Shown: one piece after another, positions 4,397-51,517 of the stretch | Position numbering within the stretch: position 1 is the first letter of the stretch | Layout: each line of letters starts with the position of its first letter | Virus record (IMG/VR): IMGVR_UViG_3300003690_002946 | Coordinates: 1-57,482 of that record | Direction: 5' to 3' (one strand) | DNA length: 57,482 bases | Source: a virus | Notes under the pieces: generated by a model | Database searches by the model: none | The model's input: only the letters and a program-made list of their open reading frames with translations | What the model was told of the DNA's origin: nothing | Translations under genes and position numbers: made by a program

Positions 4397-5262
4397 AAGT
4401 GGCCATATATTGCTGGCACTCGCCCTATATCGCCCTTTTGAGCCATATTCCCGATATTGAACTCTCTGTCCTGCCCACAGGCCATGCCCCACGAGGTTGG
4501 AGGGATGATCAGCGCGTGCAACCCGCCAATGTGGAGATTGTCCCGCATATCCCCGTGAAGGCCGAGGTGATGATCCTCCAAAACAAGTGGGATTTGGCTC
4601 TATGGGCGGATCAACGTGAGAATTACCGTACCGACCCCAAGCTGGTCTTTCTGGGCCATAATCGGTTCGAGTACGAGGACCAGCCGGACCTGGCCCGTAC
4701 GCTGAACGATGGGGATGTTGGGCTAGTCTGTATCTCTACCATGAAGGCCCTGGATTGGGAGGCAAACGGGTATACCGACCCCATCTGGGTTATCCCCCCT
4801 GGTATTCCCCTGCAAGACGAACCCTGGGTAGGCAATAATGGGATGATCCTTACTGTGGCAAACAATATCCGTCGTCCATTGTTTGCCTTTGATCGCTGGC
4901 TCGATATAACTCGTGGTCTGCCTATAGCTCTGGTTGGCGAAGGGAACGAGAATATCCCAGGAGCGGTTGGTCCCGCTCAGAGCTGGGAAGACCTGAAACA
5001 GTGGTATCAGGAGAGTGCGGTCTACCTGAACCCTACCACAGGCGCCACGGAAGACATCTATAACCTGTCCCTGCTGGAAGCGCAATCGTTTGGCTGCCCA
5101 CGCGCCCAGGTAACAGAGAGCGACCCCAGGATGTGGCTGGAGTGGTGCTTGCAAGGCGGTCCCTGGGCACAGTCTGCTAGTGCGGTAGCTCGAAGCGATG
5201 TGCAACGCGAGTTTCCAATGGTCCACTTCATCCAGCGGTGGCAGGAGGTGTTGCAAGCGTGA
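4393..5262 (+). CDS. GT-B glycosyltransferase
   Basis: 289 aa, ATGA overlap with the relic upstream and GTGA overlap downstream. The sequence has a Rossmann-like start (MKVAIYCWHSPYIALLSHIP), an interdomain region with VCISTMKALDWEANGY and VIPPGIP (typical of the 'sugar acceptor to donor' hinge in family 4-like enzymes), and a C-terminal donor-site stretch with LVGEGNENIPG and YNLSLLEAQSFGCP, where the E in SLLEA corresponds to the usual nucleotide-sugar contact. It should transfer a sugar from an NDP donor; donor and acceptor cannot be read from sequence. Confidence 0.75.
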   Translation: MKVAIYCWHSPYIALLSHIPDIELSVLPTGHAPRGWRDDQRVQPANVEIVPHIPVKAEVMILQNKWDLALWADQRENYRTDPKLVFLGHNRFEYEDQPDLARTLNDGDVGLVCISTMKALDWEANGYTDPIWVIPPGIPLQDEPWVGNNGMILTVANNIRRPLFAFDRWLDITRGLPIALVGEGNENIPGAVGPAQSWEDLKQWYQESAVYLNPTTGATEDIYNLSLLEAQSFGCPRAQVTESDPRMWLEWCLQGGPWAQSASAVARSDVQREFPMVHFIQRWQEVLQA

Positions 5263-6737
5263 ACGCAGTTTGCCTGATTATCCCACCATCGCCATTCCTG
5301 GCTGATGAACGGGTGTTTCCATCGCTAGGCATCCTGAAGGTTGCTGCCGTGCTGGATCGGGCTAAAATCCCCGTCTCTGTGCTTGATACCTCAGGCTATG
5401 CCAACCCAACCTTGCTGGTCGAACGCTTTGTCACCGACCACCCCGAAGTGTCCTGGTATGGCCTCACAGCCACCACGCCACAGTTTCCTAGCGCCGTGAG
5501 CATCCGCAACACAATCAAGGATGTGAACGCGCAAGCCACCATTGCCCTGGGTGGCCCCCATGCCACCATGACCTGTACCGGATGGAAAGAGGATCGCAAA
5601 CGCAACCGGATTGGCCGGGGCTGGGTGGCGTTTGAGCAGGCACAAGCCCTCTTTGACACGGTTGTCTCAGGCGATGGCGAGGAAGCGGTGTTTCCAGCTC
5701 TGGATGGGCAACCACTGGTTGATGCCGACGAGATGCGCTCTGGCCTGTTCCTGAAAACGGGTGAGCTTGAGGACTACCCCCTGCCCATGCGCTCGATGAT
5801 TGACCTGGAAAGCTATCACTACGAGATTGATGGCCTGCCCGCAACCAGTTTGATTGGGCAACTGGGCTGCCCCTATCTGTGTGCGTTCTGTGGTGGGAGG
5901 CAAAGTGCATCATTCCGCTTTATTCGCACTCGAAAGGCTGCTCATGTCGCTGCTGAGGTGGAACACCTGTTCGAGAGCTATGGCTATCGCGGTTTTATGT
6001 TCTATGATGATGAACTTAATGTCACGCCAACCGGACTGGAAGACCTATGTGTGGCCCTCCGTGAGGTCCAGGATCGTCTCGGTGTCGAGATGCGGTTCCG
6101 AGGCTTCTTGAAGGCTGAACGGTTCAACGAGGCACAAGCCAAAGCCATGTATACGGCTGGGTTTCGCATTGTCCTGAGTGGTGTGGAGAGCGGATCGGAC
6201 CAGATGTTGACTGTGATCCAGAAACGGACTACGGCAGAGATCAATGCTCGCTGTGTGCGCCTCGCCCATGATGCAGGATTGCAGTTCAAGGCACTCATGT
6301 CCCTGGGCCATGCGGGAGAGAGCCAGAAGACCGTCGAGGAGAGCATTGCCTGGGTCTTGAGAGAACAACCCGATGATGTGGATTGGACCGTGATAACGCA
6401 GTATCCGGGCAGCCCCTACTTTGACCAGTCCGAGCCACTGGAAGGACAACACGGGAGCTGGGTGTATCGAGCCAAGGGTGGGGAGAAGCTGTATTCCCGC
6501 GAACTGGACTATGCCAAGGATGCCGAGTTCTATAAGGGTGTGGCAGGCAGCTACGTGAGCTATGTCTGGACGGACCATCTGTCGGCTGAAGACCTGGTGC
6601 GGGTACGCGATGATGCCGAGCGGATCACTCGTCGAGCACTCGGTCTGTCCCCAGTGTTGGCCATCCAAGCCGAGCAAGTGGAGCACTCAATGGGCCAGTT
6701 GCCACCAAATGTCCTGAAGGATAGCTGGAAAACATAA
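5259..6737 (+). CDS. B12-binding radical SAM protein
   Basis: 492 aa from GTG 5259 (GTGA overlap). The N-terminal 120 residues have the cobalamin-binding-type layout (PSLGILKVAAVLDR, then VSVLDT and LGGPHATM). The radical SAM cluster motif CPYLCAFC (CxxxCxxC) is at about 204-211, followed by GFMFYDDELNV and SGVESGSDQML, as in B12/radical SAM methylases and related enzymes. The C-terminal 100 residues carry no recognised domain. Within this island it could methylate or rearrange a sugar, as such enzymes do in several glycan and antibiotic pathways; this is inference. An upstream in-frame ATG at 5238 is less likely. Confidence 0.85.
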   Translation: MNAVCLIIPPSPFLADERVFPSLGILKVAAVLDRAKIPVSVLDTSGYANPTLLVERFVTDHPEVSWYGLTATTPQFPSAVSIRNTIKDVNAQATIALGGPHATMTCTGWKEDRKRNRIGRGWVAFEQAQALFDTVVSGDGEEAVFPALDGQPLVDADEMRSGLFLKTGELEDYPLPMRSMIDLESYHYEIDGLPATSLIGQLGCPYLCAFCGGRQSASFRFIRTRKAAHVAAEVEHLFESYGYRGFMFYDDELNVTPTGLEDLCVALREVQDRLGVEMRFRGFLKAERFNEAQAKAMYTAGFRIVLSGVESGSDQMLTVIQKRTTAEINARCVRLAHDAGLQFKALMSLGHAGESQKTVEESIAWVLREQPDDVDWTVITQYPGSPYFDQSEPLEGQHGSWVYRAKGGEKLYSRELDYAKDAEFYKGVAGSYVSYVWTDHLSAEDLVRVRDDAERITRRALGLSPVLAIQAEQVEHSMGQLPPNVLKDSWKT

Positions 6738-6943
6738 TGTGGGTGAGTGTGAACAACGTGTACATAAACCTGGAGGCGGTCAACCACGTTCTTGTGCTGG
6801 AAGACACCATAACCGTGTACATGCGAGACGGGCAGGGGGTGAAGGAGCTAGTATTCAATAAAGATATGGCTGAGGTACAGGACTTGCTTGATGTACTTAG
6901 CGATCTTCACCGAATGGCTATTGAGGCTACATTGCCAGCATGA
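6737..6943 (+). CDS. Small hypothetical protein
   Basis: 68 aa, TAATG overlap with the radical SAM gene and ATGA overlap with the next glycosyltransferase. The N-terminal half is beta-like (VSVNNVYINLEAVNHVLVL, TITVYMRDG), the C-terminal half an amphipathic helix (MAEVQDLLDVLSDLHRMAIE). No family recognised. Overlaps at both ends support its being a gene of the operon. Confidence 0.65.
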   Translation: MWVSVNNVYINLEAVNHVLVLEDTITVYMRDGQGVKELVFNKDMAEVQDLLDVLSDLHRMAIEATLPA

Positions 6944-7881
6944 AAGTGCTCATATTGACCAATACGCATGGCTTGAGCACGGGCGCCCAATACGTCAAGG
7001 CATTTCGTGCCATTGACTGCGATGTGGTCACGGTGGGTGCCCCCTTCCAGGATGGGGCCTACTGGCGTGATGCGCTGATGCAGATGCGTTGGCCACCAAC
7101 CGAGGCCGAGGCGGACCGCTATATCGAGCTGGTCCAGGATATGAGCATCCAGCCGGACCTGATAACCGACAAGGGTGCGGGTATAGGCGGGGCGCTGGTG
7201 GACTTTGACCTGGTGTTGCGGTTCGATGCCTATGGCGATACGCCTGTACTGGATGGCCCCCGGCCAAAGATGCCTACGGCAGTGATCTACTCTGACCCCC
7301 ATACGGGTAACCTGCGGGCAAAGCTCGACGAGGCACGGGGCTATGATCATGTATTCGTGTTCCACAAGCCCTTCCTGCAACCATTCACCGATGCGGGCTG
7401 CCAGTCGGTCCATTGGCTGCCTGCTGCTGCTGATCCCGACATCTGGCGCTACCTGCCCGATACGATCAAGGAGTACGATGTGCTCTTTGTGGGTGCAACC
7501 GACCCCAACGTGCACAAGCAGCGGGTAAAGATGCTGGAGCATCTTGGAGACGATGTGACCGTGAAGCACGCCTTTGGCCCTGATGCAGCCACGCTGTTCA
7601 ATCAGGCATGGGTGGTGGTCAATCAGAGCCTGGCAGGTGATCTGAACATGCGCGTGCCTGAGGCTCTGAGTTGTGGTGCAACCCTGCTCACCGACCACGT
7701 GGAGGGCTTAGGAGAGGCCTTCCCAGTTCATGTTGACCCATACAGCAAGATGGAGTACCTGGCCCAGCGGATACGCACCGTTACACCGTCGAGTGGCGCT
7801 GTGTGCCAGCAGTGGATACGGGAGCACCACACCTATGAGCACCGTGCCAGCCAGATATTGGAGACAGTCTTTGGGAGATAG
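6940..7881 (+). CDS. CgeB/DUF3880-like glycosyltransferase
   Basis: 313 aa. The start MKVLILTNTHGLSTGAQYV is a GT-B N-terminal strand-loop-helix. The donor half contains DVLFVGATDPNVHKQRVKML and then NQSLAGDLNMRVPEALSCGA, matching NQSIRGELNMRLYESMACGA in the gene at 2499, so these two are paralogues of one glycosyltransferase subfamily. DPHTGNLRAKLDEARGYDHVFVFHK in the middle (positions about 128-152) fits the acceptor/donor hinge. Donor and acceptor unknown. Confidence 0.8.
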   Translation: MKVLILTNTHGLSTGAQYVKAFRAIDCDVVTVGAPFQDGAYWRDALMQMRWPPTEAEADRYIELVQDMSIQPDLITDKGAGIGGALVDFDLVLRFDAYGDTPVLDGPRPKMPTAVIYSDPHTGNLRAKLDEARGYDHVFVFHKPFLQPFTDAGCQSVHWLPAAADPDIWRYLPDTIKEYDVLFVGATDPNVHKQRVKMLEHLGDDVTVKHAFGPDAATLFNQAWVVVNQSLAGDLNMRVPEALSCGATLLTDHVEGLGEAFPVHVDPYSKMEYLAQRIRTVTPSSGAVCQQWIREHHTYEHRASQILETVFGR

Positions 7882-10800
7882 TGGTGAACGAATTACTGGA
7901 CCGCAGCGCAGTTCTGGTCATTCTGGGCGTCTACCTAACCGGATTCCTGCTGGTCGGACTGGTGATCTGGTTCATTCAGTCACAGTAGTCATTCCTGTCT
8001 ACAACCACTGGGACGATCTGACCAAACCACTCCTTGACAATCTCTCCGAGACGCTTCGTGGTCTCGACTACGAGATTATCGTCAGCAATGACGGCAGCAC
8101 TGATGCCACAAAGGATCAGCACGATCAGGACCGAGTGCACTTCGTACATCATCCTGAGAACACGGGCTTTGCGGCCACTTGCAACCGCGGGGCTAAGGTG
8201 GCTCTTGGCAAAGTGCTGATCTTCCTGAATAATGACACCACCCCACTGGATGGCTGGGTGGAACCACTCCTCGATAGCCTGGACCGCAATATCGGGCTGG
8301 TAGGGCCTCGGATTATCAATGAGCAAGTCTCTACTGTGCATGACAAGCTCCCACTGGTTGGTGCCTGTTTCGCGCTTACACGCGCTCTCTTTGAGGAACT
8401 GGGCGGGTTCGATGAGACCTTTCGGCATGGTGGCGAGGACTTCGATCTGATCTTCCGAGTACACCAGAGTGGTCGCAGTCTGGCACGTAATCAGCAGTCG
8501 GTTGTGAAGCACCAGATTGGTGGCTCGAATGACCAGATTGATCCAGATGAACTAGAAGGGTGGATACAGGCTGGGATTGCCACATTGAACAAGCGCTATC
8601 CTGATTTATTTCCGCTGTGGCCGAGTAATGAGCCTGGTCCTGTTGAAGCAACCAGTATCCCAGTCTATAAAATCCCTGGTATTACGTTCTCTATCGTGAT
8701 CCCAGCCTATAACCACTGGGCCGACCTCACGCAACCACTGCTTGACCATCTGTTTACTGATCCCGATATACAAGAGCAAGCTGAAGTAATTGTGGTAGAT
8801 GATGGTTCTGATGACCAGACCCGCAATGTAGAGAAATATGGGTTAGCACGAGTGCTCCACCAGCCTGAGAACATGGGGATCGCACGCGCACTCAACGCGG
8901 GCTTTGCTGAGGCCAAAGGGAACTATCTGTTGGTATTAGCCAACGATACTCAACCCGAGGTTGGCTGGCTCTCCAAGATGCTTGCGGTGATGGAGGAACA
9001 TCCTGAGATTGGTGTGCTGGCACCAATCTATGACCAAGAGGATTCCAGTCTTACTGCGGAGCATCTAGGCATTATTGGTGCCTGTATGATGATCCGGCGG
9101 AAGTGCTACTTGGAAGTGGATGGCTTTGATAATGACCTCGTGCGCTGTGGTGGTGAGGACATAGATTTCTTGTTACGGGTGGAACAGACCAAATGGAAGT
9201 TGGGTACAGCGCCAGAGGCAACTGTGTGGCATCAGGGTAGCGCAACACTGGGCCAGTTTGACCTTGAGCGCAAGAAAGCCTGGGATGAAGCTGGCGATGC
9301 TCACCTAAAACGGAAGTGGGGGAAGATGACCAATATACCTAAACCTCTTGTCTCGATCATTATTCCAGCCTATAACCATTGGGAAGACTGTACCGAGCCA
9401 TTGCTGAATATCCTGAGAGAGCAGTCACCACAAGCAGTGGAAGTGATCGTGGTGGATGACGGCTCGACGGACCAGACCGCTACGATGCACGGCGAGAAGC
9501 TAGGCAAGGTGGTTCATCGGAAGGCCCGAGGTGGATTTGCCGCGGCCTGCAATAGCGGGGCTGCGGTAGCCCAGGGTGACTACCTGGTGTTCCTGAACAA
9601 TGATACGGAACCACAGGACGGCTGGTTGGGGCCGCTCATCAAGGAGTTGGAGGGCCAGAAGGTAGGGATTGCTGCGCCAGTTATCCTGACCGAGACACGG
9701 GCCGTTGGTAGCCTTGGATTGGTGCAGGGCACCGATGGCACCTGGGCACATGGAAAGGCGCATGTAGATGGCCAGGATACAAGCGTCCCTGCCGTAACGG
9801 GAGCCTGTCTTGCCATTCGCAAGGATGTGTTCTGGGAGGTTGGTGGCTGGGATGAAGGGTTTATTGGTGGTGGCGGGTGCGATGATGTTGACCTGTGCCT
9901 GCGAGTTCGACGGGTAGGCCTCCGGGTGCACGTGGTCCCCAGCGCAAGTGTGCTTCACCGAGAGGGCAGCACCCGTTTCCTCTTGCCTGAGACACAAGCC
10001 GAGATCAAGCAGAACCAGGCACGGCTCCAGGAACGCTGGAGTGATGCTGGAACAACCGTTCCAACGACAGAGTGGGCATGGCACGGCCCCAGCAACCCTG
10101 CCCAAGGTGGCTCACTGGCCGTGATCAACCAGGAGGTCACGAAACGGCTGGGGATTACGCTGACTGCGGCACCGTCCGATGAGCCTGTGGATGTGCTTGT
10201 ACAGCACTACTGGCCAGGAGAGGATGCCCCTGAACGGCCAAGCAACGTCAAACACTGGCTGGTGATCCAACCCTGGGAGATGGGCAAGCCACCCGCAAGT
10301 TTCCTGGAACGCTATCTGGATGCGGATCGGCTGATTGTTCCCTCGGAATACTGCCGAGCCATCTGGGTTGATGCGGGCTTTCCATCCGAGAAGGTGGCGG
10401 TGATCCCGAATGGTGTAGATACCAAGCGGTTCTGCCCAGGACCAGATGCAATACTCAAGGAGTTTCAGGTACTCTCTTTGGGTGGGACAATCTGGCGCAA
10501 GGGCTGGTCGAACCCGGACATTCTCCTTGAGGCATGGCAGCAAGCCTTTACCAAGGGAGATAGAGCAAGTCTCCTGGTGAAGGATCAAGGGACCGAGAGC
10601 TTCTATCAGGGTCAAAGCGCACGGGAGCGGATTATCGGACTCGTGGACTATAGCGATGCAGACCTGAGCACTGAGGAGCTGGTGCTCCACTACCAGAGTG
10701 CAGACCTCCTGGTAGCACCATCACGAGCCGAAGCGTTCTGTATGCCCGTGCTAGAGGCGATGGCTTGCGGGGTGCCTGTGATTGTGCCCGCAGGTGGGCC

Positions 10801-11044
10801 AACCGATGAGTTTGTTGGGATGGACTACCCCTTGCGTGTGCCTGTCGAGTGGAAGGAGGACATACGCGGAAAATGGTACGAATGCGACCCAACCGCACTA
10901 GCTCAACAGATGCGCTGGGTGTATGAGCACCGTGAGGAGGCGCGTGCCCTGGGTAAACAGTTACGTGAGCAGGCATTGCCCTATAGCTGGGACCGTATTG
11001 CAGCTCAATACAAAACGCTGATTGAGGAGACAACACGTGGCTAG
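7871..11044 (+). CDS. Tandem GT2-GT2-GT2-GT4 glycosyltransferase
   Basis: About 1058 aa with four catalytic modules. Three GT2 domains start at SVTVVIPVYNHWDD, FSIVIPAYNHWADL and VSIIIPAYNHWEDC, each with a nucleotide-binding D motif (VSNDGST, VVDDGSDD, VVDDGST), a DxD-like site (LNNDTTP, LANDTQP, LNNDTEP) and a conserved GGxDE or FDND region. The last 310 residues are GT4: VIPNGVDTKRF, then APSRAEAFCMPVLEAMACGVP. Such proteins make repeating glycans. No ATG directly precedes the first domain. TTG 7871 has GGAG at good spacing; the frame also contains ATG 7835 and remains open to 7730. A small membrane ORF (7884-7988) lies in another frame across this N-terminus. Confidence 0.85.
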   Translation: MGDSGERITGPQRSSGHSGRLPNRIPAGRTGDLVHSVTVVIPVYNHWDDLTKPLLDNLSETLRGLDYEIIVSNDGSTDATKDQHDQDRVHFVHHPENTGFAATCNRGAKVALGKVLIFLNNDTTPLDGWVEPLLDSLDRNIGLVGPRIINEQVSTVHDKLPLVGACFALTRALFEELGGFDETFRHGGEDFDLIFRVHQSGRSLARNQQSVVKHQIGGSNDQIDPDELEGWIQAGIATLNKRYPDLFPLWPSNEPGPVEATSIPVYKIPGITFSIVIPAYNHWADLTQPLLDHLFTDPDIQEQAEVIVVDDGSDDQTRNVEKYGLARVLHQPENMGIARALNAGFAEAKGNYLLVLANDTQPEVGWLSKMLAVMEEHPEIGVLAPIYDQEDSSLTAEHLGIIGACMMIRRKCYLEVDGFDNDLVRCGGEDIDFLLRVEQTKWKLGTAPEATVWHQGSATLGQFDLERKKAWDEAGDAHLKRKWGKMTNIPKPLVSIIIPAYNHWEDCTEPLLNILREQSPQAVEVIVVDDGSTDQTATMHGEKLGKVVHRKARGGFAAACNSGAAVAQGDYLVFLNNDTEPQDGWLGPLIKELEGQKVGIAAPVILTETRAVGSLGLVQGTDGTWAHGKAHVDGQDTSVPAVTGACLAIRKDVFWEVGGWDEGFIGGGGCDDVDLCLRVRRVGLRVHVVPSASVLHREGSTRFLLPETQAEIKQNQARLQERWSDAGTTVPTTEWAWHGPSNPAQGGSLAVINQEVTKRLGITLTAAPSDEPVDVLVQHYWPGEDAPERPSNVKHWLVIQPWEMGKPPASFLERYLDADRLIVPSEYCRAIWVDAGFPSEKVAVIPNGVDTKRFCPGPDAILKEFQVLSLGGTIWRKGWSNPDILLEAWQQAFTKGDRASLLVKDQGTESFYQGQSARERIIGLVDYSDADLSTEELVLHYQSADLLVAPSRAEAFCMPVLEAMACGVPVIVPAGGPTDEFVGMDYPLRVPVEWKEDIRGKWYECDPTALAQQMRWVYEHREEARALGKQLREQALPYSWDRIAAQYKTLIEETTRG
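7884..7988 (+). CDS. 34-aa single-pass membrane peptide nested at the GT2 N-terminus
   Basis: GTG start two bases after the stop of the upstream glycosyltransferase, with GGGAG about seven bases earlier. The peptide is one hydrophobic helix: VLVILGVYLTGFLLVGLVIW, flanked by NELLDRS and IQSQ. It overlaps the presumed N-terminal extension of the tandem glycosyltransferase in the +1 frame and ends at the first GT2 strand. Possibly a membrane tether for the glycosyltransferases. Confidence 0.55.
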   Translation: MNELLDRSAVLVILGVYLTGFLLVGLVIWFIQSQ

Positions 11045-46180: not shown

Positions 46181-47086
46181 ATGGCAGCCGTAGTTAAGAA
46201 CGCCCAGACTGCCCAGGATGTTCCTGAGTCAGTCGTCGTCGCAGCACAAGCCGGGTGCCCGGATGCGTTCGCGGCGATTTACCGCAGACACCACGGGGAC
46301 ATTCGCCGCTACGTCTATCGGCGGATGGGCGGACACGAGGATGCTGCGGACCTCACACAAGATGCGTTTGTCAAGATGTTCCGGGCCATCGGGCGAACCA
46401 ATGGCCGACCGCTGAAGATACTCCCCTGGGCGTACCGCATTGCCACCAATGTCTGTCTTGACTACTTGCGCCACCGCAAGCTCATCCACTGGCAGACGCT
46501 CGTCACCGATGGCGACAAGAGAGACACGCCTGAGGAGCATCAGTATTCCCGGCAAGCCCAGCAAGCCCAGGCGATAGAGCGTCAGTCAATTCAGCAGCCT
46601 TTGTTCCCGCAGCCGGAGCGTGCGGTTGAACTAGCAGAGCTGGTCAAGGACGTGAATGTGGTCCTCGACGACCTCCATCCAGCCTATCGGGACATGCTGG
46701 TGCTGCGGGAATGGGCTGGGCTGGGCTACCAAGAGACTGCCGAGCTCCTGGGGACCACCCTGTCAGCCGTGAAGAGCAGGATTAACCGCGCCCGGCAGGA
46801 GTTTCGGCAGCGTTGGACGGGTACCTACCGGATGCAGGCGGCGCAGCGTTTGTCGGCACGGTTCGCGCTACGTGAAAGCCACATCCCCATCATTGCTGCA
46901 CTCCGGGCCGTGATTGAGGAGTCCAACCGAACCTCCTGGAAGACCAGCGAATTGACCGTGGCGGTGCATGCACGTGGCGTGGTCCTGCCTGCGGTGAGGC
47001 CATCGTTGGTTGTGGGGGGTCTGCTCAAGAACATCAAGGGGCTGGTCTACCATCGGGCTACGAGGGTCTGGAAGGTGGTAGACTAG
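46181..47086 (+). CDS. Phage-encoded ECF-type sigma factor
   Basis: 301 aa, AAAGGAG 8-14 bases before ATG. Region 2: FAAIYRRHHGDIRRYVYRRM, AADLTQDAFVKMFRAIG and PWAYRIATNVCLDYLRHRK. Region 4: LHPAYRDMLVLREWAGLGYQ, ETAELLGTTLSAVKSRINRA. The last 90 residues (AQRLSARFALRESHIPIIAA, then SELTVAVHARGVVLPAVRPS) form an extra C-terminal region not part of the core ECF protein. It could redirect host RNA polymerase to phage promoters at a late stage. No anti-sigma gene is recognisable next to it. Confidence 0.85.
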   Translation: MAAVVKNAQTAQDVPESVVVAAQAGCPDAFAAIYRRHHGDIRRYVYRRMGGHEDAADLTQDAFVKMFRAIGRTNGRPLKILPWAYRIATNVCLDYLRHRKLIHWQTLVTDGDKRDTPEEHQYSRQAQQAQAIERQSIQQPLFPQPERAVELAELVKDVNVVLDDLHPAYRDMLVLREWAGLGYQETAELLGTTLSAVKSRINRARQEFRQRWTGTYRMQAAQRLSARFALRESHIPIIAALRAVIEESNRTSWKTSELTVAVHARGVVLPAVRPSLVVGGLLKNIKGLVYHRATRVWKVVD

Positions 47087-47140: not shown

Positions 47141-47179
47141 CCACAAGAGCCAGCCGCGAATTGCGGCTGGCTCTTGTGG
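47141..47179. terminator. 17-bp hairpin after the sigma factor gene
   Basis: CCACAAGAGCCAGCCGC pairs perfectly with 47163-47179 around loop GAATT. Strong GC-rich stem 55 bases past the stop; no clear T tract. Confidence 0.7.
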
Positions 47180-47183
47180 GACC

Positions 47184-47225
47184 ACTGGTACGGAACCCTG
47201 TGCGAACTGGTACGGAACCCTGTGC
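47184..47225. repeat. Two 20-base direct repeats, period 22
   Basis: ACTGGTACGGAACCCTGTGC occurs at 47184-47203 and 47206-47225, identical. Each has GGT-N5-ACC symmetry. Spacing of two helical turns suits an operator or small iteron pair. Confidence 0.75.
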
Positions 47226-47531: not shown

Positions 47532-48269
47532 CTACTCGACAGCAGCCTCCGCCATAGCAGTGTGCTGCTCACAAAGCCCAGAGCCTCCCTCGTCGTACTT
47601 GAAGACCATATCCCCGCATCCAGCGATAGCGCACGGCTCACTCCCCTCGTCGGCTGCATCCCCAGCCTTAGCCGCTACCTGTGCCTGTAACCGGGCCAGC
47701 GCCACGACCATAGCTGCGGGTGGTGGCGTGGTGCTGGCCGTGCGGATACCTAGCGCAGCGGCGCGTTCGGTTAGTGCATCCCATTCAGGACTGGCCGAAT
47801 ACGGCTCTGAGTGGGCCTCCTGGGGTCGTGCGGGTGGTCCCTGTGTGGTTGGCCTACTTGCTGCTCCACGGCTCGCTACGGCGTTCTGTGTGCGTTTCCG
47901 TGGCGCTGGTGCCGACTCGCGGCGAGGCGCACGCCCGGTTGACTGCACTTCTTCTGCTCCAGCAATTCCCTGGTCACTCCCAGGGTAGCCAGCCATTGCC
48001 AGCGCACGCCCCACGGCGCTCGTTTCTGCGACCTCGTGGGGGAATAGGGACTCTGGCTTGTTTCCCGTTGCGTCCAGCGTGACCCGGACGTGTCCCAGGA
48101 AGGAACGGCCATCCACAAAGACCACGGTTGCCAGAGCCAGAAGCTCGCCGCCTACCTCACAGAACTCGGTGGCAACGCTTTTAATTCCAACCGGGACCGT
48201 GTCGCCATGAGCAGCCACGATCCTCTCAGAAACGGTGCGGTAGGAAGTGCCCCTGATGTCTACAGGCAT
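47532..48269 (-). CDS. Rad52/Erf-like single-strand annealing protein
   Basis: 245 aa from ATG 48269 (GGAGAT upstream). The core VVFVDGRSFLGHVRVTLDAT ... LFPHEVAETSAVGRALAMAG is the alpha/beta pattern with SAVGRAL found in Erf/Rad52-type phage annealing proteins. After residue 110 comes a Pro/Arg/Ala-rich linker, then a helical segment and a C-terminal Cys-His cluster (PCAIAGCGDMVFKYDEGGSG, LCEQHTAM) that looks like a zinc knuckle. It probably pairs DNA ends during recombination-dependent replication. Exact subfamily not settled. Confidence 0.7.
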   Translation of the reverse strand: MPVDIRGTSYRTVSERIVAAHGDTVPVGIKSVATEFCEVGGELLALATVVFVDGRSFLGHVRVTLDATGNKPESLFPHEVAETSAVGRALAMAGYPGSDQGIAGAEEVQSTGRAPRRESAPAPRKRTQNAVASRGAASRPTTQGPPARPQEAHSEPYSASPEWDALTERAAALGIRTASTTPPPAAMVVALARLQAQVAAKAGDAADEGSEPCAIAGCGDMVFKYDEGGSGLCEQHTAMAEAAVE

Positions 48270-48466
48270 TTTGCATCTCCTATTGCCCACTCGACAGTAT
48301 TCGTTAGCGGAACGTACCTTCCGTGGATGCGGTAATAGTCACAGATGTCCTGTGCTGCGCGTTTGCTCCTGAATCCAGCCTGCGTTGTGGCCCCGGTTGT
48401 CGTGTCTACGATTCGCCACCACCCCGGCATCATGTCCTTCTTGGTAACGATCCACCTAGCTGCCAT
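48260..48466 (-). CDS. Small basic protein upstream of the annealing gene
   Basis: 68 aa, GGAGAGGTGGGG before ATG 48466. Starts MAARWIVTKKDMMPGWWRIV, then TQAGFRSKRAAQDICDYYRI. Beta-strand then helix, with a compact nucleic-acid-binding feel. Overlaps the annealing gene start by 10 bases. No family recognised. Confidence 0.6.
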   Translation of the reverse strand: MAARWIVTKKDMMPGWWRIVDTTTGATTQAGFRSKRAAQDICDYYRIHGRYVPLTNTVEWAIGDAKCL

Positions 48467-48549
48467 TCCCCACCTCTCCTTTTTTCTCTTCAGTGTGTTG
48501 GTCCCCGGCCATCTCCCCCGGTTATCCCACGCCCCACTAGCTCAGGGGT

Positions 48550-48587
48550 CATTACACACACCCCCCCTAAAGGGGGTGTGTGTAATG
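48550..48587. terminator. 16-bp perfect hairpin downstream of a leftward gene
   Basis: CATTACACACACCCCC pairs with the sequence at 48572-48587 (GGGGGTGTGTGTAATG) with a 6-base loop. It lies just after the stop of the leftward 67-aa gene at 48590. No T tract. The distal arm ends GTAATGCCC, a half-site also present in the palindrome at 50898. Confidence 0.65.
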
Positions 48588-48589
48588 CC

Positions 48590-48793
48590 CTAGCCTTGGG
48601 CTGGTACAAGAAGTTTCCTCAGAAGCGCAAGCTCGGCTTTCTCTGCACTTAGCTGCCTCCCCCTGGCGTGACCAGCACGAACATGGTCCTCGCGTGGCAG
48701 GTTGCGGTGGCGAGGCCAATGTTTCCGGCACCAACCGTGGATGTTCACTCGCCCTAGCTTGCGTCCGCAGCCGCTTTCCGAGCAGGTTCTCAT
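48590..48793 (-). CDS. Small Cys-rich zinc-finger-like protein
   Basis: 67 aa from ATG 48793 with AGGAGG 10 bases upstream. Residues 4-24 hold three cysteines and a histidine pair (CSESGCGRKLGRVNIHGWC, then RKH), a compact metal-binding module, then a basic helix (RARGRQLS-like; AEKAELALLRKLL). First gene of the leftward cluster behind its own promoter (TTGTCA-N17-TATGAT). Early regulator is plausible. Confidence 0.65.
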   Translation of the reverse strand: MRTCSESGCGRKLGRVNIHGWCRKHWPRHRNLPREDHVRAGHARGRQLSAEKAELALLRKLLVPAQG

Positions 48794-48815
48794 GGTGGCG
48801 TTGCCTCCTACTATT

Positions 48816-48890
48816 ATCATAGCAGCGTTGACCGCACTTGACAAGGTATTCCCCAGGCACCTTGCCATCCACGGTCAACGCTGCTACCAT
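48816..48890. promoter_or_regulatory. Divergent promoter pair with a shared spacer sequence
   Basis: Leftward: TTGTCA (48844-48839), 17 bases, TATGAT (48821-48816). Rightward: TTGCCA (48862-48867), 17 bases, TACCAT (48885-48890). The spacer ends of both promoters are the same 12 bases, GGTCAACGCTGC, followed by TA of the -10, placed as an inverted repeat. A regulator binding these would contact both promoters symmetrically. Confidence 0.75.
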
Positions 48891-48911
48891 AGGAGTAGGA
48901 GGGGACAACGA

Positions 48912-49118
48912 ATGGCAGCACGACGCACGAGCCGCGCACGCGCCTATCCCCCTGTCCAGTCATATCGGATGCTGCGGGTATCTGTGGCTTGCTCGCTACG
49001 GGACGAATACGAGGCCGCTAACCCCGACTGGCGCGGCGCCTACTGGCCCTCGCTGGAGGCTATCAACGAACGCATACGATTGATACGCCGGGCAAAGGCA
49101 CAAGAGGCTGCCCATTGA
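48912..49118 (+). CDS. Small basic protein behind the rightward promoter
   Basis: 68 aa from ATG 48912 (GTAGGAGGGG upstream). Begins MAARRTSRARAYPPVQSYRM and ends with an alpha-helix of charged residues (LEAINERIRLIRRAKAQEAA). Probably nucleic-acid-binding; no family recognised. It is the first gene of the rightward early unit. Confidence 0.6.
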   Translation: MAARRTSRARAYPPVQSYRMLRVSVACSLRDEYEAANPDWRGAYWPSLEAINERIRLIRRAKAQEAAH

Positions 49119-49143
49119 CTCATTCTCATAACTGTGGTACGCT
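49115..49143 (+). promoter_or_regulatory. Promoter upstream of the structured leader
   Basis: TTGACT (49115-49120), 17-base spacer, TACGCT (49138-49143), overlapping the stop of the preceding gene. Start expected near 49150. Confidence 0.6.
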
Positions 49144-49201
49144 GTGCAGGCACCACTGGCGGCGGATTGAGCACCACCGCCACTGTACCGCCGAATAGAG
49201 C

Positions 49202-49299
49202 ATCCCAAGTGCATACCAGAACCTCTTTGGGGCGGCTGGCGCTGCGCTTGCTCAGGCGCAGGAGTCACTTGGGATCGCCAGCCGCGCCAAAGGGGTTTT
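49202..49299 (+). ncRNA. Structured leader RNA with pseudoknot topology
   Basis: Helix A: ATCCCAAGTG (49202-49211) pairs perfectly with CACTTGGGAT (49266-49275). Helix B: 49222-49241 pairs with 49276-49295 in 18 Watson-Crick pairs plus one G-U and one mismatch. The arms are interleaved (A, B, A', B'), an H-type pseudoknot. An inner hairpin CTGCGC/GCGCAG (49242-49247/49256-49261) lies between. Helix B is followed by TTTTG and its 3' arm contains the GGGG that would be the ribosome site of ATG 49303. So it may be an attenuator or RBS-hiding switch, or a stand-alone RNA. Confidence 0.6.
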
Positions 49300-49302
49300 G
49301 TC

Positions 49303-49551
49303 ATGGGCGATAGCTTGGACCGCGAACTAGCCCAGCAACGGGCATTGGGCCGCGAGCTACAGGGACTCCACCAGTCTCCTGAGGTTCGACTGGCTGGCCT
49401 ATACCTACGAGAGATGGGGCGCACGTGGGTCTCCCCACCACGGTCTTTACCGCAACGGCTGGAGGCGCTGCTTGCTCTCAAGAGGGGGACCACGTTCCTC
49501 ATTGCGGCCAATGCCAGCTATACCCGGAGGCTAAAGGCTCATAATGAGTGA
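49303..49551 (+). CDS. Small helical protein controlled by the structured leader
   Basis: 82 aa. Starts MGDSLDRELAQQRALGRELQ, a charged helix, then LAGLYLREMGRTWVSPPRSL and a helical end (ALLALKRGTTFLIAANASYT). The likely ribosome site is in the leader's helix B. Overlaps the helicase gene start. No family recognised. Confidence 0.6.
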   Translation: MGDSLDRELAQQRALGRELQGLHQSPEVRLAGLYLREMGRTWVSPPRSLPQRLEALLALKRGTTFLIAANASYTRRLKAHNE

Positions 49552-50854
49552 GGGACGAGCGGGTGGCTGGCCTCAAGTGCAGAAGCTAGGGGACCACTAC
49601 GTTTGGGTGTATGACGCCCGGCACATCACGGTTGACCTCTCTCGGATTGTAGAGTCGAGGTCAACCGTGATGGCCGATATGAGGATAACGTACAGCAACG
49701 GTACGTTATCCCAGGTGGTGATTTCAGAACGTGTCTCTCTTATGTCGGGGCAAGCCGTGTCGGGCGTGGCACGGCGGCTGGCTGGCCAGCTATCCCCAGT
49801 CAATGGTACCGACCCGGATGATAGGCCAGACTGGGACGGACTCCTGCTCAACATCATTGACCAGACAATCCAGGAGTGGCGAGGTTCTGGGGCAACGGTA
49901 CAACTATCCCAGGTTAACTGGCGGTCACGGCCACGGTGGGTGCTCCGCCCGTACATAGAGCACGCGGGGTCAACTATCCTATACGCGGCCGGGGGGTCAT
50001 TAAAATCCTACCTGGCGCTGGCAATGGCCCTCTCGGTGGCTACCCAGCAGAATATCGTCGGGCTGGCCAGTGAAGAGCCAATGCCCGTGCTCTACCTGGA
50101 CTGGGAGGCGGACGAGCAGACGCACTCCGAGCGGCTGGAGGCGCTGTGCCGGGGCGTGGGGTGCGTCGTACCGGACAACATCCACTACCGCCAGATGAGT
50201 CAGCCGCTCCCCGATGCGCTTGATACCGTCCACCAGGAGGCCGATAGGCTTGAGGCTGGCCTCCTGATAATAGACTCCATGATGCCTGCTCGTGGCGGCG
50301 ATGCGAACGACTCCGAGCCGAACCGTCTCGTGTTCGATGCACTCAGGGAGATCGCCCGGCCTAGCCTCATCCTGGACCATGTGAGCAAGGCCGAACTAGA
50401 GAAGGACTCGCCTACGCCCCTGGGCAGTATCTCCACCCTGAACCGCGCTCGCAACGGGTGGACGGTGATGGGCGACGATGTGGATGCCAGTCCCAGGCAT
50501 GTTCTGCTCCGGCACCGCAAGACCAATAACGGTCGGTTTGAGCCACCACAATCCTACGCTCTGCGTTTCAAGGATGGCGAGGATGGCGAGTTTGGCCCGT
50601 TCACGGAGTCGGTACGGATTGAGCCTGTCAAGCCCGAGGATGTACCAGAGTTTGGGGTCAAGCTCTCGGTGACTAGCCAGATATGGACAGAATTGCAGGG
50701 TGGTGCGCGGTCCTCGGCAACCATCATTGAAGCGCTTGACGTGGCCCCCGGTGCGGTGCGGGTGGCGTTGAGTCGGATGGTCAAGGCTGGCAAGATTGTT
50801 AACATCCGGGGCGTGTACGGTCTGGCTGCCCACCAGACGGACGCAGACCGATAA
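49544..50854 (+). CDS. RepA-like replicative helicase/AAA ATPase
   Basis: 436 aa. After an N-terminal module (GGWPQVQKLGDHYVWVYDAR; also found in the 48-aa gene at 482) comes an AAA_25/RepA-type core: Walker A-like YAAGGSLKSYLALAMA (about 147-162), VLYLDWEADEQTHSERL, LLIIDSMMPARG (Walker B, about 240), LILDHVSK and a RHRKTNNGRF region. The last 60 residues look like a winged helix (TIIEALDVAPGAVRVALSRM). It should unwind or organise DNA at the phage origin. Two perfect inverted repeats lie inside its 5' coding part. Confidence 0.8.
   Translation: MSEGRAGGWPQVQKLGDHYVWVYDARHITVDLSRIVESRSTVMADMRITYSNGTLSQVVISERVSLMSGQAVSGVARRLAGQLSPVNGTDPDDRPDWDGLLLNIIDQTIQEWRGSGATVQLSQVNWRSRPRWVLRPYIEHAGSTILYAAGGSLKSYLALAMALSVATQQNIVGLASEEPMPVLYLDWEADEQTHSERLEALCRGVGCVVPDNIHYRQMSQPLPDALDTVHQEADRLEAGLLIIDSMMPARGGDANDSEPNRLVFDALREIARPSLILDHVSKAELEKDSPTPLGSISTLNRARNGWTVMGDDVDASPRHVLLRHRKTNNGRFEPPQSYALRFKDGEDGEFGPFTESVRIEPVKPEDVPEFGVKLSVTSQIWTELQGGARSSATIIEALDVAPGAVRVALSRMVKAGKIVNIRGVYGLAAHQTDADR
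49626..49711 (+). promoter_or_regulatory. Two perfect inverted repeats inside the helicase gene
   Basis: TCACGGTTGACCTC (49626-49639) and its inverse (49657-49670), 14 bp with 17-base spacer. GGATAACGTAC (49683-49693) and GTACGTTATCC (49701-49711), 11 bp with 7-base loop. Perfect arms in coding sequence suggest a protein-binding or origin element, or RNA hairpins. Confidence 0.6.
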
Positions 50855-50859
50855 TGGTA

Positions 50860-50995
50860 GGTATTACACTTTTGTTACATCGCACAGACTGTAACACGGG
50901 CATTACGTGTAATGCCCAAAGCGGTGCGGTTCGCTGGTCCTCTCGGTTGGAACGGGTATTACTTGGTGAAACATTACATCGGCCAAACGTAACAC
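50860..50995. promoter_or_regulatory. Cluster of ATTAC/GTAAT sites in a gene gap
   Basis: The 186-base gap holds GGTATTAC at 50860 and 50955, GGCATTAC at 50899, TGTTAC-N12-GTAACA (50873-50896), and a 20-base palindrome GGGCATTACGTGTAATGCCC (50898-50917), then ACATTAC (50971) and GTAACAC (50989). Such repeated, partly palindromic sites suggest an operator array or origin-like region. No convincing gene. Confidence 0.55.
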
Positions 50996-51040
50996 ATAGG
51001 GCTGGGCTGGCCTCGCGGCGAGGCCGAAAGGGGCACGCAG

Positions 51041-51253
51041 ATGCAGTGCTTGACGGATGGGTGCGATGGAGCCGGGACGTATCTGGCACCACCACGGTAC
51101 CGGATGCGGCCACGAACGGCGGATGGGCTACGCTATTCGGTGAGGAAGCTCGTCGAACAGCGCGACCACCAGCAAGAGGGCTTGTGTGGCTGGTGCGCCA
51201 CGCTGGAAAACCGCGAGGTGGGATCAGCCGAGCGGTACAGGCAGGATCAGTAG
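51041..51253 (+). CDS. Small four-cysteine zinc-binding-like protein
   Basis: 70 aa. CLTDGC at 3-8 and CGWC at about 49-52 could bind one zinc ion. Between them is a basic stretch (APPRYRMRPRTADGLRYSVR). Weak AAGGGG upstream. Ends directly before the next gene. No family recognised. Confidence 0.6.
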   Translation: MQCLTDGCDGAGTYLAPPRYRMRPRTADGLRYSVRKLVEQRDHQQEGLCGWCATLENREVGSAERYRQDQ

Positions 51254-51517
51254 GTGCCACTCTTCCGCATGGCATATCTGGTCCCAGCGCCGGAGCTATG
51301 GGTGCGTTGGCGGCTGCCATTCTATGAGGTGCCGCTACGGTGGCACCTTCCCGACCCGGCAACGGTGAGTCTGTGGGCGACTGAGGCGCTATGCCATCAT
51401 CCTGAGGTGGTGATGCCCGCTCTGAGGCGGACGGTGCTGGAGCGCGATGTGGATGTGAGCACCACCCCACCTCGCGGCGAGCGATGCCAACGGTGCCAGA
51501 AGAGAGGGCCGGAGTGA
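51254..51517 (+). CDS. Small aromatic-rich hypothetical protein
   Basis: 87 aa from GTG 51254. The N-terminus is Trp/Pro-rich (YLVPAPELWVRWRLPFYEVP), the end has CQRCQKRG. One CTCGCGGCGAG copy at 51471. Overlaps the methyltransferase start by one base. No family recognised. Confidence 0.5.
   Translation: MPLFRMAYLVPAPELWVRWRLPFYEVPLRWHLPDPATVSLWATEALCHHPEVVMPALRRTVLERDVDVSTTPPRGERCQRCQKRGPE

Follow-up and report, generated by a model that had tools for sequence, protein, structure and literature searches.

The 184-base intercistronic gap at 49119-49302, between two small + strand open reading frames of a divergent gene module, carries a long hairpin (helix B) that exceeds chance expectation on the + strand, ends directly in a T-tail and buries the ribosome-binding site of the gene that follows. 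The DNA is an IMG/VR virus record (IMGVR_UViG_3300003690_002946; GC 58%), all 57,482 bases of which constitute the window analysed here. As the hairpin both hides a ribosome-binding site and resembles a transcription stop signal, it is probably an off-switch. Our preferred reading, held with somewhat more confidence than doubt, is that helix B is a terminator or attenuator hairpin that masks the ribosome-binding site and lowers expression of an 82-aa gene and an ATPase gene, with a second, interleaved helix (helix A) at most tuning its action.

The open reading frame upstream of the leader (68 aa; 48912-49118, + strand) has a strong ribosome-binding site (-10.7) and finds no family match in Pfam. 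The one downstream (82 aa; 49303-49551, + strand) is of unassigned function, likewise finds no family match, and overlaps by 8 bases the gene for an AAA_25 ATPase of the replication type (49544-50854, + strand; Pfam AAA_25, E = 4e-22). Both small frames combine good ribosome-binding sites with a weak coding signal. The position of the leader between two + strand frames and ahead of the AAA_25 gene counts in favor of an attenuator. The leftward genes of the module span 47532-48793, and the product of one of them (47532-48290), which has no match in Pfam, is a protein that we take to be recombination-like solely from a motif of the ETSA-GRALA type. A terminase is also encoded in the window.

In the preliminary description helix B was a near-perfect helix of 20 bp, and 19 of the 20 positions at 49222-49241/49276-49295 do pair, one of them as U.G, the exception being a G-G mismatch. 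The helix is, however, longer than first noted: this core extends to a hairpin at 49217-49300 on the + strand, with arms 49217-49241/49276-49300, 24 pairs and the one G-G mismatch at 49231/49286. Within its loop lies an inner hairpin (49242-49261, + strand; arms 49242-49249/49254-49261), found where it had been placed, with 8 pairs closing the loop GCTC and a pair probability of about 0.95. The + strand of 49195-49302 folds at -61.3 kcal/mol (z = -7.3), and none of 200 shuffles folded as well; the - strand reaches -48.8 kcal/mol (z = -3.8), leaving the + strand fold better by 12.5 kcal/mol. As both wobbles of helix B are G-U on the + strand RNA, where the - strand would have A-C, they indicate a rightward transcript. 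The earlier proposal of a structured leader RNA on the + strand is supported.

The candidate ribosome-binding site AAAGGGG (49289-49295, + strand) lies inside the 3' arm of helix B. Its duplex with the anti-SD sequence (-7.3 kcal/mol) is within the range of the other genes of this window, and its spacing is good. As had been claimed, helix B sequesters the GGGG (49292-49295) ahead of the ATG at 49303, with an unpaired probability of 0.00 in the nested ensemble; the SD is therefore paired in a stable fold, and the 82-aa frame behind it scores 0.060 per codon, a weak coding signal beside the training mean of 0.184. Directly 3' of this GGGG follows the T-tail TTTTGT (49296-49301, + strand), whose score of -3.56 is equalled at 0.03% of + strand positions. 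Ranked by the strength of the preceding hairpin, helix B is first among the 171 T-tails on both strands of the window: the hairpin at 49222-49295 reaches -50.3 kcal/mol, against -39.6 kcal/mol for the runner-up. The terminator-like character originally attributed to it is supported, and more strongly than at any other site of the window: as in intrinsic terminators, the stem of a stable G+C-rich hairpin is followed directly by a T-tract. Against a terminator stand the shortness of the T-tract, which consists of four T followed by GT and is able to pair with AGAA, and the 34-nt branched apex of helix B, which is unusual for such elements.

Helix A is formed by ATCCCAAGTG (49202-49211) and CACTTGGGAT (49266-49275), both on the + strand, and is, as reported, a perfect 10-bp helix (10/10 Watson-Crick pairs) whose 3' arm abuts the 3' arm of helix B with a 0-nt linker. 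Along the leader the elements succeed each other as A5', B5', inner hairpin, A3', B3', so that the helices interleave in the sequence and on paper give an H-type arrangement. The pseudoknot shape previously proposed holds for this order; a pseudoknot in which the two helices coexist is no more than possible, as B displaces A in the nested ensemble. When nested transcripts of increasing length are folded, helix A has a probability of 0.97-0.99 for those ending at 49277-49280 and of about 0 for those reaching 49286-49289, by which point the lower half of B is transcribed. When helix B was kept fixed, a perfect helix crossing it with at least 10 bp arose upstream in 64 of 20,000 dinucleotide shuffles (about 0.3%), and in 110 of 20,000 when either side of helix B was counted. 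With G-U pairs allowed, the window holds about 20 further cases of two interleaved helices of at least 9 bp, which makes interleaving by itself unremarkable. We accordingly treat helix A as suggestive, weaker evidence than helix B and short of proof.

Hand-summed energies, which ignore geometry, give -67.2 kcal/mol for helix A with full B, including a 9.6 kcal pseudoknot penalty, against -61.3 kcal/mol for B alone, and -42.3 kcal/mol for helix A with lower B, which is thereby about 19 kcal/mol less stable than full B. The loop from A5' to B5' has 5-10 nt facing the 20-24 pairs of B, and only 5 nt when B is extended to 24 pairs. From these linker and loop lengths the full double structure is expected to be sterically strained. 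Given the 0-nt A3'-B3' linker and the 5 nt available across a 24-pair B, helix A may be transient or partial. Since A and B have no bases in common, helix A was rejected as a classical antiterminator.

In the preferred reading of helix B as a terminator-like off-switch, a rightward phage operon leader (49119-49302) would carry this hairpin such that a fraction of polymerases stops at its T-tail just ahead of the start codon, while in read-through RNA the same hairpin would cover the ribosome-binding site, thereby lowering expression of the 82-aa gene and of the AAA_25 ATPase gene downstream. Helix A would form first during transcription and then be displaced by B, or be retained as a partial, short-lived pseudoknot, for which reason it should at most delay or tune B. 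The block might be relieved by antitermination, RNase III cleavage or a phage protein. If helix B works in this way, it would be another case of a phage replication-type operon restrained by one RNA element at the levels of both transcription and translation; if helix A matters too, it would represent a case of phage gene control by a pseudoknot leader.

The promoter originally proposed, TTGACT-N17-TACGCT, is present at 49115-49143 (+ strand), where its -35 element is overlapped by the stop of the 68-aa frame, but its 8/12 match is no better than chance, sites of this quality occurring 1.7 times per kb per strand. It is therefore conceivable that the transcript starts in the divergent promoter region at 48804-48902. 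This region, between the divergent genes, is a palindrome with 44-nt arms (80%) that folds more strongly on the - strand; both arms carry an AGGAGG ribosome-binding site along with a promoter-like site. The phage encodes its own sigma-70-type factor (46181-47086; Pfam Sigma70_r2, r4), and hence its promoters may depart from the host consensus. The label "early" given to the downstream gene was drawn only from its neighbours.

Unusually strong hairpins cluster around the leader (46.1-49.7 kb), and of the window's ten strongest fold outliers, six fall within 46-50 kb (binomial p about 2e-5, for a threshold set post hoc). Among these outliers are the stem at 47141-47179, the palindrome at 48804-48902 and the stems at 49624-49705. 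A perfect 18-bp hairpin without a T-tail lies between convergent genes at 47141-47179 and is followed by a tandem 22-bp repeat, ACTGGTACGGAACCCTGTGCGA, at 47184-47225. Between two leftward genes there is a 19-bp hairpin (95%; 48547-48590), again without a T-tail. The strongest fold outlier of the window, at 49624-49705, comprises a perfect stem of 16 bp followed by another of at least 10 bp, both within the beginning of the AAA_25 frame. Nearby hairpins that match helix B in strength but lack T-tails, one of them inside a coding region, raise the possibility that helix B belongs to a class of elements unrelated to termination.

Three other explanations bear on these observations. We consider it unlikely that the leader is a true pseudoknot switch, in which helix A together with the lower 10 bp of B would strain and open upper B and free the ribosome-binding site and T-tail, with a ligand, protein or ribosome setting expression by choosing between the pseudoknot and full B. 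The perfection of helix A, its exact abutment on B3', its crossing of B at p about 0.003 and its precedence over B in the nested transcript series all point this way, and the crude sum with its 9.6 kcal penalty puts A with full B slightly below B alone, sterics permitting; there are also precedents in timP mRNA (PMC11228461), ColIb-P9 repZ (PMC8383071) and T4 gene 32 (PMC3014915). What weighs against it is that A with lower B (-42 kcal/mol) is some 19 kcal/mol worse than full B (-61.3 kcal/mol), that the A3'-B3' linker is 0 nt, and that interleaved helices are common in the window. We assign a similarly low probability to the formulation in which the pseudoknot leader acts as a folding switch, the first-formed helix A competing with upper B by geometry, without shared bases, and so choosing between termination with burial of the ribosome-binding site and expression of the replication operon.

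Helix B could instead be an RNase III site, at which cleavage of the duplex trims an early polycistronic RNA and frees the ribosome-binding site, just as RNase III processes intercistronic hairpins in T7-type phages. The duplex exceeds two helical turns and the same module has other long hairpins between or near genes (47141-47179, 48547-48590, 48804-48902 and 49624-49672), but a T-tail directly after B would be superfluous for cleavage and the G-G mismatch lies in mid-duplex, leaving us to regard this as distinctly improbable. At the level of DNA, the hairpins might be a palindrome cluster of replication-origin or recombination structures or operators, with the RNA fold incidental. The concentration of six of the ten strongest outliers in 46-50 kb beside recombination- and replication-type genes, the perfect pair inside the AAA_25 coding region and the tandem 22-bp repeat would suit such a role. 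The strand bias of helix B (a + strand fold better by 12.5 kcal/mol, and wobbles that are G-U only on the + RNA), along with the placement of the T-tail and ribosome-binding site, which are RNA features, renders it very unlikely.

To call the leader a regulatory or stand-alone RNA of no familiar kind, as was done at first, is an overstatement, because both phage hairpins hiding ribosome-binding sites and pseudoknot leaders are known (PMC3014915, PMC11228461). In the leaders of the T4 genes e, soc, 49 and I-TevI, RNA helices cover the ribosome-binding site (PMC3014915), as helix B does here, and in T4 this blocks initiation in long transcripts. The T4 late transcripts lack the 5' arm (PMC3014915), whereas no such internal promoter was identified in this leader; helix B further differs in its T-tail, its longer duplex and its replication-type neighbours. 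The leader here would share with the T4/T2 gene 32 operator its position ahead of a DNA-metabolism operon in a phage and, possibly, an H-type pseudoknot. The T4 gene 32 pseudoknot, however, is located 67 nt ahead of the start codon and binds gp32, and the ribosome-binding site there stays single-stranded (PMC3014915), while helix B has 24 pairs and itself contains the ribosome-binding site. According to a 2010 review of T4, the gene 32 pseudoknot was possibly the only viral case used for translational autoregulation (PMC3014915).

The mRNAs of ColIb-P9 repZ (PMC8383071) and timP (PMC11228461) are activated by pseudoknots. As in these, the ribosome-binding site here is covered by a structure and could be made accessible by an alternative pseudoknot, with a replication gene downstream as in repZ. 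Their pseudoknots, in contrast, join distant loops and are antagonised by an antisense RNA, none of which was found here, and that of timP has covariation support (PMC11228461), whereas helix A is known from one sequence. Intrinsic terminator and attenuator leaders resemble this one in having a strong hairpin with a T-tract at once after it, but differ in that here no more than four T stand in a row, the apex is branched and spans 34 nt, and helix A does not overlap B. By analogy, helix B fits the T4-type leaders that hide ribosome-binding sites, and helix A would make the leader resemble those of gene 32, repZ and timP.

An Rfam search at gathering scores gave no matches, and at E up to 10 only chance-level matches over the leader; HDV-like, other ribozyme and riboswitch readings were set aside for want of an Rfam match. 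The HDV fold also needs a P4/J4-2 segment, for which the 0-nt A3'-B3' junction gives no room. The flanking proteins have no relatives in IMG/VR, GTDB genomes or INPHARED, collections that may omit records very near the window. Nothing similar to the DNA of 48,000-51,400 was recovered from the phage collection, and a DNA pattern spanning A3'/B3' matched two stretches, neither with the leader around it. The terminase is the only protein with viral relatives (32-46% identity), and the AAA_25 protein found no match in the records of these relatives, many of which are fragments. A single weak plasmid match of the ATPase (24.8%) to Candidatus Promineifilum breve was insufficient as a clue to the host. 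Proteins of 969 aa and 770 aa have no relatives in IMG/VR. In the 5238-11044 region, a 1104-aa protein matches several glycosyltransferase families and a radical-SAM/B12-binding protein has relatives of 45-51% identity across many bacterial phyla.
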